The notes under the pieces were generated by a model. That model was not told where the DNA came from. It searched no databases and saw nothing but the letters and a program-made list of their open reading frames with translations. Position numbers and translations under genes: made by a program. Below, in pieces: positions 20,309 through 59,693 of a stretch of DNA of 64,000 nt. Every line of letters starts with the position of its first letter. Positions within the stretch are counted from its first letter, which is position 1. Origin of the DNA: Dichotomocladium elegans (Eukaryota; Mucoromycota; Mucoromycetes; Mucorales; Lichtheimiaceae); NCBI GenBank assembly GCA_025716815.1, contig JAIXMN010000006.1:496001-560000 (forward strand). Reading direction: 5' to 3'.

Positions 20309-22581
20309 ATGCTCGTCACTATCTCGAAGACTAACCTGCTGAGATCCGCAGCAGGTGCTCGCCGCCTGATACCCTCTGCCTTATACTGCAGATCTTTTGC
20401 CAGCACGAGCGATGCTACTGATACCCAGAACTTGATCGAGAAGATCGTGCAGAAGTATGCTCTTGATTTGCCCGAGGGCTACAAGGTCAAAAGTGGCGAT
20501 TATGTATCGATTCGTCCTCATCATGTGCTTACGCATGACAATACTGGCGCAGTGATTCCCAAGTACGCTTCCTTTTTCTTCTTCTTGCATATATCGATAA
20601 ACAGCAACTTATGCTTTCTGCCAGGTTCAAATCGATTGGTGCCACCAAATTCTTTGACCCCAAGCAACCCGTCTTTGCACTTGACCATGATGTGCAGAAC
20701 AAGACGGAGAAAAACTTGACAAAATATAAGAACATTGAGAAGTTTGCGCGTGAGCATGGCGTTGACTTTTACCCTGCAGGACGTGGTATTGGCCATCAGG
20801 TGATGATTGAGGAAGGATACGCATTCCCACACACGTTGACAGTGGCGTCCGATTCGCACTCAAACATATACGGTGGTATTGGTGCGGTGGGAACGCCCAT
20901 TGTGCGTACGGATGCAGCTGCGATCTGGGCGACAGGTCGTACATGGTGGCAGATCCCACCCGTTGTCAAAGTTGAGCTTCAGGGTACGCTTCCTAAGGGC
21001 GTGACGGGAAAGGATGTGATCATCAGCCTGTGTGGTCTGTTCAACGAGGATCAGGTTCTCAATACCGCAATCGAGTTTCATGGTGCTGATGCTCTGTCTG
21101 TTGAGGATCGTCTTGCGATTGCAAACATGACAACGGAGTGGGGCGCCCTTGCTGGCGTGTTCCCCGTGGATGATAAGACCATCGAGTACCTCCGCAAGCG
21201 CATGCGCCGCATTGCTCTCACCCACTTTGAGAACAAGAACCTCCCGCCCACGCCAGCCGGCCAGGAGTTTGTCCATCCCCGTATTAACGACCAGACCATC
21301 CAGGCCCTCATCGACAACCCCATCGCCCCGTCGGCGAATGCCACATACGCCAAGAAACTCACGCTCGACCTGTCCACGTTGTCTCCGTACATCTCTGGAC
21401 CGAACTCGGTCAAGGTCGCCACGCCGCTTGCGGAACTGGAGGCGAAGGACATCCGCATCAACAAAGCCTATCTTGTCTCGTGTGTCAACTCACGTGCGAG
21501 CGATCTCCGCCAAGCAGCTGAAGTGCTGAAGGGCAAAAAGGTCAAAGAAGGCGTCGAGTTTTACGTTGCGGCTGCTAGTTCTGAAGTACAGAAGGAGGCG
21601 GAGGAAACTGGCGACTGGGCTACGCTGCTCGAGGCTGGTGCCAGGCCGCTCCCTGCTGGTTGCGGTCCCTGCATTGGTAAGTTTGCAAGAGCTAATGGTG
21701 CAAGGCTGGTAAGAAAAGCGGAATTGACCTGCTTGTGTGTGTGTGTTTTTTCGGGTGTAGGCTTGGGCACGGGTTTGTTGAAGGACGGCGAGGTCGGCAT
21801 TTCTGCAACCAACCGGAACTTCAAAGGCCGCATGGGCTCGCTGTCCTCCCTGGCCTATCTTGCTTCGCCCGCCGTAGTTGCTGCCTCGGCCGTTGCAGGC
21901 AAGATTGCGTCTCCATCGAGTGTGAGCGGTGAGGGTATCCAGGCACCTTCCACTGTGCCCAAATTCACCATCGAGACCCAGACTGCGGCGTCCTCCGATG
22001 ACACTGCCTCATCAGCTGCGGAGGTGCTTCCCAATTTCCCCGCTATCATTCGCGGCGAGCTGCTGTTCTGCCATGCCGACAATTTAAACACCGATGGAAT
22101 CTATCCCGGCAAATACACCTACAACGATGACATGACTCTGGAGGATATGCGGAAGGTGGTGATGGAGAACTACGACCCTGAGTTCGTCAACATTGTCAAG
22201 GAAGGTGATGTTCTTGTGGGCGGCTTCAATTTCGGTACGGGCTCGTCGCGTGAGCAGGCTGCCACAGCCATCAAGTCACGTAATATCCCCATCATGATCG
22301 CCGGCTCGTACTCTGATATCTTCAAGCGCAATTCAATTAACAATGCGTTGTTGTTGATCGACTCGCCTGAACTTGTTCAGGATCTCAAGCAAGAGGTTGG
22401 TACGCGTGACTTGACGCAACGCACGTCCTGGAAGGTCGCTATCCACGTGGCTGAGGGTCGTCTGGAGGTCACCAAAGCCGACGGTTCCGAGAAGGTTTAC
22501 AAGGTCGGTGCCTTGGGCAAGAGCGTTCAAGAAATCTGGCTCGACAATGGTCTTGAAGGCTGGGTCAAGGAGCGATTGTAA
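20309..22581 (+). CDS. LYS4: Homoaconitase, mitochondrial
   Basis: Converts homocitrate to homoisocitrate in the alpha-aminoadipate pathway of fungal lysine synthesis, in the mitochondrial matrix. Exons 20309-20562, 20625-21676 and 21761-22581 give 708 residues (yeast Lys4 has 693). An N-terminal presequence rich in R, S and A precedes '[11 protein letters not shown]'. The homoaconitase-specific run '[19 protein letters not shown]' and '[16 protein letters not shown]' separates it from TCA-cycle aconitase. The three 4Fe-4S ligands are Cys371 (in 'CVNSRASDL') and Cys431/Cys434 (in 'CGPCIG'). The swivel domain carries '[21 protein letters not shown]'. Intron 2 (84 nt) is a multiple of three with no stop, so retention would insert 28 residues right after the CGPCIG cluster loop. 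The start is the ATG at 20309, since the upstream in-frame ATG at 20186 adds an unlikely Phe-rich leader. Confidence 0.96.
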
Positions 22582-57235: not shown

Positions 57236-57889
57236 AGGTCAGGCCATGAACTCGTAGACGCATCAACTAACGAATGCGACAAGGGAAAATAGAAAGAGAG
57301 AAAGAGAAAGAGAGAAAAGAGAGGATATAAGTGCCGCTGAAAAACCAGTGCATCATAAGCTTTGAGCATACACACAACAGTCTCTTTGTCCACATGATTT
57401 AAGCTCCCAGTTTTTTGGGAGTTGGAAAATAATGTTTGACAGCGGTGCGGATACGACACCTATGGTGCGCTCCGCCGCATTATGCCCGCTATATTATCTA
57501 TCTGCCCCACAGATTTCCAAACACCAATAGCTTCTCAATCAGCTTCCCGTTGGACTTTATACTGCAAACTATGCGGAAAGTGGAAGAGAAGAAGAAGAAA
57601 ATCCCCGGTCAGTGCGGCCTTGCGGCCGAACAACTCGAGCATTGCAATGGTGTTCAGGTGCAAGCCTTTGTGTCCTTCCACAAGGACTGGAATATGTGGC
57701 ATGCATCATGTCTGAAAAACGGACTGCCACGAGAGGTGCTGACGTAGCAGGTCATGCCTCGCATGACCTGCTACGTCAGCACCAGTGGATCGCCAGTAGC
57801 ATTTTCTGTCGCTTCAGAGATAGCGCCCGCCATTGCCGAGAACATTTCGGATATAGTTATATACATTATGCGGATTCATGGATGTTCCT
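57236..57889. other. Start of gene-poor right arm; palindrome-bearing spacer
   Basis: Overlapping short plus-strand ORFs (57436-57747, 57612-57902) without family features run into the palindrome at 57735-57783. GA-rich sequence at 57290-57325 marks the promoter side of the Zn2Cys6 gene. Confidence 0.5.
57735..57783. repeat. Perfect 23-bp inverted repeat with 3-nt spacer
   Basis: The left arm 57735-57757 is the exact reverse complement of the right arm 57761-57783; the spacer is CTC. The flanking bases do not extend the pairing. It can form a cruciform or a very stable RNA hairpin. Confidence 0.97.
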
Positions 57890-58390: not shown

Positions 58391-58799
58391 TGTAGAAACC
58401 ATTCTCTAATAGTTGATTTGATAGTGCTGGACGAGTTCGTCGCCCCCATGTTGTTGACCAGACGCATCGTTTTTTTTTATGCACCAGAGGAGCAGCAATT
58501 GTGCCAGAAAGCACAAAAAAAGACGCCCTGATTTTCTTTGCTATAACCGTAAATGACAATGGTCATTGTACTGAAATTTTATTTAGATACGGCCCTCCAA
58601 GAAACCAACGAGGTCCATAAGGGGTTTTCACGCTCTTCACTAAGTACATATAATAATATCTTCTACATGGATTATACTTTATTTTCAAAAATAAATGTCG
58701 TAAACAAGATAAAATAATGTCGTGCAAAATACAAGAAAAATGCCGCATAGAATTATACAAATTTGTCGTATCAATAGGTAAAAAGATTTCGCATCCATG
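58391..58799. other. AT-rich spacer, no gene seen
   Basis: Short ORFs on the minus strand (58338-58559, 58563-58760) have no recognised features. It separates the relic gene from the hairpin-rich Fanzor 3' flank. Confidence 0.5.
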
Positions 58800-58955
58800 G
58801 ATTAAACCCTGTTAGTCAACAGAAAACACTACGCCTTCTCCAATCCCGTTAACTTACAACACACCGTCCTTCCAAAGGAAGGGGGCTTGCCCCGAAGGGC
58901 TGTGGTTATCCTGGGTGCGTCAGCGATAACTGACGCGGAAAATTCTTGGTCGGAG
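58800..58955 (-). ncRNA. Candidate Fanzor guide-RNA scaffold (hairpin cluster)
   Basis: Starts immediately after the Fanzor stop codon on the same strand. In transcript order it has: a perfect 7-bp stem 58936-58930 / 58923-58917 with a 6-nt loop; a 4-bp GC stem 58900-58897 / 58892-58889 closed by UUCG, a classically stable tetraloop context; and a 6-bp stem 58882-58877 / 58873-58868 with a 3-nt loop. The GC content is clearly higher than in the flanking DNA. In Fanzor and TnpB systems the guide RNA is transcribed from the 3' end or UTR of the nuclease gene, so position and structure agree. The 3' boundary and the guide segment cannot be set from one copy. Confidence 0.38.
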
Positions 58956-59693
58956 TTACAGTCGTCTCGACCCGCCAGAGCGTGCACGTCGTGACCTTTC
59001 TGGCCTTGCCCGTCGTGGTCTCACGCTGCGCTGCTCTGGTTCAGGTGAATGTGGCTTTCCACCAGCTGCGGAAGCTTGTGCAGCATTTCTTCTCTGAAAT
59101 CTTGCTGGGATGATACCATCTTCCCGAAGACCCCGGAGGATATGATGCATGTTGAGAGTCGCCACCAGATCCCGGTTCCATAACCTTGGTTGACGAACAC
59201 CCTCTGCCATGCCTGCTGTACAGTTTTGATTTGTGCATCTATTAAAACATCAAAATATTATATTTTTTTTTGGAAATATAACACAACATGCCCGTCCTTC
59301 ATACCGTAGCAGGCCATGGCAAATCGTGAGCGGATTGTCGGGTCGTCGATATGGGCGTGGATTAGGAACCATTTTAAAGGTAGCAAGGCTTTCATTGTCA
59401 CATATAGGACAGCACTTGCTTGTCTTGTACTCGTCGATCAAATAAATATTGCAATTGTTCTTCTTCAACAGCCGCCGGAAGCTGACACCACGGATAGGCT
59501 CGTGATATCTTGTATGCGGCGCAGACCAATTTCGTATCACGAAAACGGACCTACTGCCAAACTTCGCATTCACAGAGTCGAGAAGCTTTTCATCTGCTTG
59601 CTGCTTCTTGTAAAACACTGACAGGCGAAGTTTTCGAAAAAGAAATTGTGGGTTCGGGTGGTTCGTAGTGGTTGTCGCGTAGCCCTGAACCAA
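58956..59693 (-). CDS. Fanzor (eukaryotic TnpB-like) nuclease, 5'-truncated C-terminal part
   Basis: Two exons on the minus strand, 59693-59305 and 59238-58956, 223 residues as far as it can be read. The first exon carries 'FRKLRLSVFYKKQQADEKLL', 'VFVIRNWSAPHTRYHEPIRG' and 'LIDEYKTSKCCPIC', the Thr-Ser-x-CxxC start of a zinc ribbon. After the intron the second half is 'RCTNQNC', then 'PRLWNRDLVATLNMHHIL', whose NRD is the RuvC-III aspartate motif (Asp codon 59171-59169). The tail is Arg/Pro/Ser-rich. Splicing at 59305/59238 is needed to complete the second Cys pair. The N-terminal half, with the first RuvC aspartate, is not visible upstream (59.7-60.0 kb), so I infer a truncated, probably inactive copy, although this C-terminal part has no stop or frameshift. 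Confidence 0.72.

Follow-up and report, generated by a model that had tools for sequence, protein, structure and literature searches.

A probable dead, 5'-truncated copy of a Fanzor1-carrying, transposase-less mariner-type element in Dichotomocladium elegans

The stretch of DNA analysed here (the window, 64,000 nucleotides of contig JAIXMN010000006.1 of Dichotomocladium elegans; Mucorales, family Lichtheimiaceae) holds on its minus strand an open frame that resembles the C-terminal part of a Fanzor. Fanzors are eukaryotic RNA-guided DNA nucleases. The locus raises the question of which element this fragment comes from, and whether its surviving coding part is still constrained. In the reading that we develop below, it would be a dead 5'-truncated copy of a transposase-less Tc1/mariner-type element carrying Fanzor1, which we call family A.

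The fragment and its parent element

Comparison of the exon-1 piece with PDB sequences revealed Fanzor1 of Parasitella parasitica (PpFz1, PDB 9cf0) as the best match (E 5.8e-32), and also matched Spizellomyces Fanzor1 (SpuFz1, E 1.8e-13), supporting the nuclease identity proposed in the initial annotation. Profile searches gave at most sub-threshold TnpB-like matches on the Fanzor pieces with Pfam and NCBIfam (the best being Cas12f1-like_TNB with exon 1 in Pfam, E 0.0079), and Pfam by itself would not have identified the fragment. Pfam returned no match for exon 2, and PF26935, the precomputed domain of most relatives, was not reported in a scan of three proteins, two of them so labelled. By its sequence, the window copy is the tail of a Fanzor1, a member of a predicted RNA-guided nuclease family.

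All parts of the copy lie on the minus strand. The 3' part of exon 1 (59305-59682) comprises the RuvC-II strand, DEYKTS with its Glu codon at 59430-59432, and the first zinc Cys pair (DEYKTSKC-CPIC, Cys codons 59409-59411 and 59400-59402). It is followed by a 66-nt phase-2 intron (59239-59304, GTATGA...TTTTAATAG), the splicing of which creates the Arg-Cys of the second pair, R-CTNQNC (Cys codons 59235-59237 and 59220-59222), aligning by eye with LLRCKNMSC of PpFz1. Exon 2 (58956-59238) carries CTNQNC, the WNRD motif (W-NRD-LVATLN, RuvC-III Asp codon 59169-59171), a basic tail and the stop codon at 58956-58958. The zinc ribbon, the RuvC-III motif and the intron completing the second Cys pair are thus found where the initial annotation had placed them. 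The TNB zinc ribbon (CxxC ... CxxxxC) is complete, formed by CPIC and the spliced CTNQNC. The RuvC D-E-D triad is incomplete: the Glu and the third Asp are kept, while the RuvC-I Asp would lie upstream of the break and is absent together with REC and WED, the N-terminal two thirds of the protein being gone.

Alignment of the DNA to a full-length copy of family A (L010, the reference copy, C33:38782-42722) shows 95.4% identity over 1013 alignment columns. Since this homology spans 58673-59682, the fragment corresponds to the right quarter (1.01 kb) of an element of ~3.94 kb. It continues beyond the end of the initial annotation to the right terminus of the transposon at 58673, with the right terminal repeat CATTTATTTTTGAAAATAAAGTAT at 58674-58697, and breaks on the other side at 59682/59683, in agreement with the 5' truncation noted earlier. 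The 1218 bp beyond this break matched nothing but themselves in a search of the genome, and the minus-strand frame, open from 59699 to the stop at 58956-58958 across the intact intron, begins within this flanking single-copy DNA. A 23-bp inverted repeat without mismatches, its arms 3 nt apart, was also observed at 57735-57783. Elsewhere in the window, an ORF at 20611-22578 resembles homoaconitase and shares 96% identity with a D. elegans protein along its entire length.

The assignment to a fungal family is borne out, a search for Fanzor C-termini in the 39.4-Mb genome giving at least 151 matches, with 150 of the 360 candidates scored. Among the first 60 matches listed, 57 are at least 80% identical to the window piece, a count that excludes shorter matches of this identity further down the list, and 20 of the 57 have a stop-free exon-1 frame that spans 600 aa or more. 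We read 20 of the at least 151 loci in 10-kb stretches. Compared to L010, the 19 others are mostly 97-99% identical, with 94.4% for L025 and 88% for one piece of L027. The ~3.9-kb element could be aligned in 19 copies of 3.83-3.97 kb (L012 was left out), and 17 of these have an unbroken frame of 702 or 709 aa across the intron, L018 and L028 being broken; because the loci were picked mostly for long open frames, this proportion is not a family-wide rate. Joined at the corresponding splice junction, the full-length copies have a 709-aa frame. Full-length family-A exon 1 matches PpFz1 with E 1e-117 over most of its length and SpuFz1 with E 4.3e-43. In the 709-aa protein the RuvC triad is complete (VTIDPGRRD, LVDEYKTS, WNRD); the first two motifs align to both solved Fanzors, and we take the NRD to hold the third catalytic residue.

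The search for relatives with full-length exon 1 was also successful beyond the genome itself, yielding 118 related proteins, the closest (47% identical) from Mucor mucedo; those that are named presumably all belong to the phyla Mucoromycota and Zoopagomycota. None of the 118 is named as D. elegans, some carrying no name, so that the D. elegans copies seem absent from that protein collection and Fanzor families are perhaps under-counted in annotated genomes. Masked repeats may be the cause, although this is a guess. Within the genome, a family B (L053-L057) has Fanzor matches that are 62-68% identical in protein. By its coordinates, C46:1029411-1030645 is an internally deleted relative of ~1.2 kb that retains both ends, SL1 (see below) and the Fanzor C-terminus and has lost its middle. 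Finally, of the 150 listed Fanzor matches, 71 lack a neighbouring SL1 hairpin among the 100 listed; many of the 71 are divergent and some long-framed, and they may represent additional families that use other RNAs or ends.

Mariner-type ends and the transposase-gene relic

From left to right, the complete element consists of a mariner relic of ~600 bp, the intron-containing 709-aa Fanzor1 gene, the hairpins and the right terminus. Positions 4-599 align, left terminal repeat included, to the first ~640 bp of T1, an autonomous mariner at C57 with a second copy at C44, with 75% identity and 14% gaps. The scanned part of the T1 ORF matches DDE_3 (E 1.1e-6; 29.0 bits against a cutoff of 28.6), the HTH matches being weaker and under their cutoffs. 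In the elements of all 20 loci the homology to 2.0 kb of T1 ends at T1 position 640-651, while the flanks of L009, L012, L015 and L022 contain extra mariner pieces. Judged from this alignment, the left ~600 bp derives from the 5' part of a DDE_3 mariner and has since decayed. No Pfam transposase domain was detected in 6 scanned of 28 frames in L010:2700-6800. A fusion in which a transposase DNA-binding HTH domain would form the first Fanzor exon was rejected, the relic frame of L010 hitting a stop after ...AQRWALQ.

Both canonical ends are present in 16 of the 20 fetched copies. Each of these 16 is preceded by TA on the left, and the right flank is TA in 11, TG in three, TT in one and CA in one; no empty site was encountered. 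The left end of T1 reads CATACACTC, not TATACACC, and three T1-type left ends (L049, L052, L025) have no preceding TA. Across the genome we counted 180 left-end-like and 317 right-end-like sites, each against 0 in the control, two numbers that are not comparable since the mismatch limits differed. In L025 (C79:410777-414739) almost perfect identity to T1 over the left ~550 bp gives way to family-A sequence, which looks like recombination or gene conversion and would mean that Fanzor elements and mariners have exchanged left ends. Short deletions or foreign sequence adjoin the right terminus in L002, L016, L021, L024 and L028, the terminal repeat reappearing past the deletion in L002, L021 and L024. 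The stretches fetched, which stop short of the T1 right terminus, contained no transposase whose right end matches, so that we only infer that DDE_3 mariner transposases elsewhere in the genome would mobilise the element in trans.

The left part of the window copy could also have been missing from the start, if the truncation occurred at insertion by one-ended transposition, as in Helitron-borne Fanzors, and not by later deletion. Mariners, however, are cut-and-paste elements, and other copies of the family carry deletions as well. In favour of truncation at insertion, the 57 family-A C-termini have a listed SL1 downstream in 53 cases and a listed left end 1.5-5.5 kb upstream in at least 37, although the latter is a lower bound drawn from the best 40 places and 100 listed of 180. 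Elements with a truncated 5' side and an intact 3' side occur among the Chlamydomonas Fanzors, according to excerpts of PMC3627910. We regard such an insertion as somewhat unlikely; it is compatible with our preferred reading of the locus as a dead copy of family A.

Hairpins behind the stop codon

Downstream of the stop codon, the window copy has a 7-bp hairpin, SL1 (58917-58936, minus strand, GCGTCAG-TTATCG-CTGACGC), a 4-bp hairpin, SL2 (58889-58900, minus strand, GCCC-TTCG-GGGC), and a third, SL3 (58868-58882, minus strand, CCTTCC-TTT-GGAAGG), the last two identified from the fold of the corresponding L010 stretch and from family comparison. SL1 and SL2 recur directly 3' of the stop in families A and B, while SL3 is found in family A and is missing from the five family-B ends read. 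Rfam gave no match for the candidate RNA region. The fold of the post-stop region has a z of -1.85, compared to +0.69 for the last 123 nt of the element, which is no better than shuffles.

Searching the genome for SL1 gave 142 sites (control 0). Of 100 listed, 77 have a listed Fanzor match at most 1.5 kb upstream, for 67 of them at a distance of 311-333 bp, and the other 23 have none of the 150 listed Fanzor matches upstream, unlisted Fanzors being possible there. Among the 28 distinct variants of these 100 sites, pairing is kept in 95.9% of cells, and two of the seven pairs show two-sided changes (C-G to U-A in 11 variants, A-U to G-C in nine). The covariation of 0.351, versus 0.243 in shuffles, was reached by none of 500 shuffles and exceeds all six slid versions. 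However, 432 of 500 shuffles have as many covarying pairs and 489 of 500 as many pair types, so that neither number is unusual, and independent changes are few because the variants go back to two main types. SL1 shows compensatory changes from one family to the other and is a candidate omega-RNA stem.

These hairpins might give the truncated copy a role, if it were kept as a ghost locus whose 3' hairpins and own right flank supply a guide RNA for a Fanzor made elsewhere, as proposed for the ghost loci published for Spizellomyces in the available text of PMC10432273. Most full-length copies share the exact SL1 and SL2 sequences of the window copy, but the SL1 stem is alike in 23 of 25 aligned copies, so that its identity here shows no more than recent descent. 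Changes private to the window copy are fewer past the stop (3/285) than in the coding part (17/660), a difference that is not significant (p = 0.22), and the 5' part of the element is lost. We therefore prefer the reading as a dead copy and consider a retained guide locus unlikely.

In family A, SL2 ends ~215 nt short of the right terminus. In the OMEGA systems known to us the guide comes from the flank. A scaffold of SL1 and SL2 detached from the terminus could instead imply a fixed, element-internal guide common to all copies, or an RNA with an unusually long 3' extension reaching the flank, in which case truncated and internally deleted copies would be trans-acting guide donors; we hold this to be distinctly improbable. 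An internal guide right behind SL2 is not supported, the family-A sequence there being self-complementary (SL3). The 25-nt stretch behind SL2 occurs 77 times with at most three mismatches, mostly in places of the family itself; five places with three mismatches are C31:912877 (-), C31:935330 (+), C68:478850 (-), C68:1125434 (-) and C112:872069 (-). Behind SL3, the block GTAAGT ... CTAACAG (window 58809-58857, minus strand; L010:6539-6587) resembles a 49-nt intron downstream of the stop, and its GTAAGT and TGACTAA are found again in family B. Such an intron-like block could account for conservation there without RNA function.

Selection, drift and known systems

In the Fanzor CDS, the first, second and third codon positions (709 sites each) carry 6, 3 and 17 of the differences common to at least two of the 19 copies (binomial p 0.0008 for the excess at position 3). 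These shared differences are also rarer in coding sequence (26/2127) than in noncoding sequence (59/1528, p 3e-7), the latter made up of the relic (27/599), the region before the ATG (30/860) and the intron (2/69). Because of this position-3 excess and the lower number of coding differences, the gene mattered during the spread of the family, and was under purifying selection among the 19 copies. The mariner relic is without clear coding constraint, with shared differences of 8:4:6 and singletons of 17:10:22 over its codon positions, a slight bias of the singletons towards position 3, and length changes that shift its frame in some copies. Behind the CDS, the first 140 nt contain one shared difference (p 0.056 versus noncoding) yet 15 singletons, and the remaining 146 nt contain six (p 0.82).

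The window copy differs from this pattern. Its 17 private coding changes, that is, changes unseen in the 24 other copies aligned from the at least 151 loci of the genome, comprise 12 nonsynonymous and five synonymous ones, distributed 6:5:6 over the codon positions. Two of them, G540R in the RuvC-II strand and G557S (numbering of the 709-aa protein), hit glycines matched in both PpFz1 and SpuFz1. Given the 12:5 ratio and the even spread, the copy appears to drift without selection. The initial annotation had described a coding part that has not decayed, by recent truncation or continued constraint; the frame is indeed open, but continued constraint is rejected on the spectrum of private changes, and what fits best is a truncation so recent that no stop has yet arisen. 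It is very improbable that the zinc ribbon and RuvC-III persist as a domesticated or still constrained small protein, since the open frame from 59699 to 58956 through the intact intron, which would speak for it, starts in flanking single-copy DNA and has accumulated the private changes just described.

Taken together, these comparisons argue, with high confidence, for a family A with mariner-type ends, a transposase-gene relic and a Fanzor1 gene under purifying selection, of which the window copy is, by all sequence indications, a neutrally drifting 5'-truncated relic, dead as a nuclease gene. Unable to make the nuclease, it still has the hairpins and the right end, and the most it could do is to provide a guide RNA in trans. 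For the intact copies, the Fanzor with an omega-RNA from the post-stop region would cut element-free sites, repair then copying the element back, a role to which we give about even chances. It is still unproven what role a Fanzor plays for its transposon. The window copy is in itself unremarkable and the interest sits with the family: D. elegans has many young, similar, transposase-less elements with a conserved Fanzor1, next to truncated and internally deleted sisters, and so offers a natural setting in which to ask whether the nuclease sustains a high copy number. The main use of the family is as such a many-copy system, whose intact sister copies would lend themselves to testing Fanzor function for transposons.

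Fanzor activity and ghost loci have been described (PMC10432273), as have a link between Fanzor1 and mariners and Fanzor transposons that can reach hundreds of copies (PMC10711439), in the excerpts available of both papers. The accessible portions of the literature on Fanzor, including Mucor, mariner transposase and the D. elegans genome, gave no report of a Dichotomocladium Fanzor. PpFz1 (PDB 9cf0-9cf3) has the zinc-ribbon layout of family A. In the part of PMC11423790 at hand, its 75-nt omega-RNA combines an SL1 of 7 bp with an SL2 of 4 bp, matching the family-A hairpins in size and layout. About 93 PpFz1 residues inside RuvC, the site of the ~100-aa FRI domain according to the same text, have no counterpart in family A, and the window copy further differs in missing the N-terminal two thirds. 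As with SpuFz1 and its ghost elements, family A has many similar copies, partial copies and apparently Fanzor-less relatives with a common right-end candidate RNA; however, the SpuFz1 RNA region reaches the right terminal repeat in the excerpted PMC10432273, whereas family-A SL2 stops well short of it.

Among mucoralean hosts, Fanzor1 elements of Mucor circinelloides (MCi) and Rhizopus oryzae (ROr) are described in the available part of PMC3627910. Of these, MCi-2 has 3' ends that align and 5' regions that differ, and ROr-4 and MCi-4 are transposase-less like family A but were put in MuDR, with 9-bp duplications, in contrast to the mariner-type ends and TA of family A. Fanzor1 in transposase-less mariners is already known, and family A adds another case. 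A parallel in this respect is PUl-4 (Bao and Jurka 2013, PMC3627910, as excerpted), a Fanzor1-only mariner with TA duplications which, like family A, has mariner-type ends adjoining TA. Family A has numerous, young copies, and its left end keeps a recognisable transposase-gene relic, which may set it apart from PUl-4.
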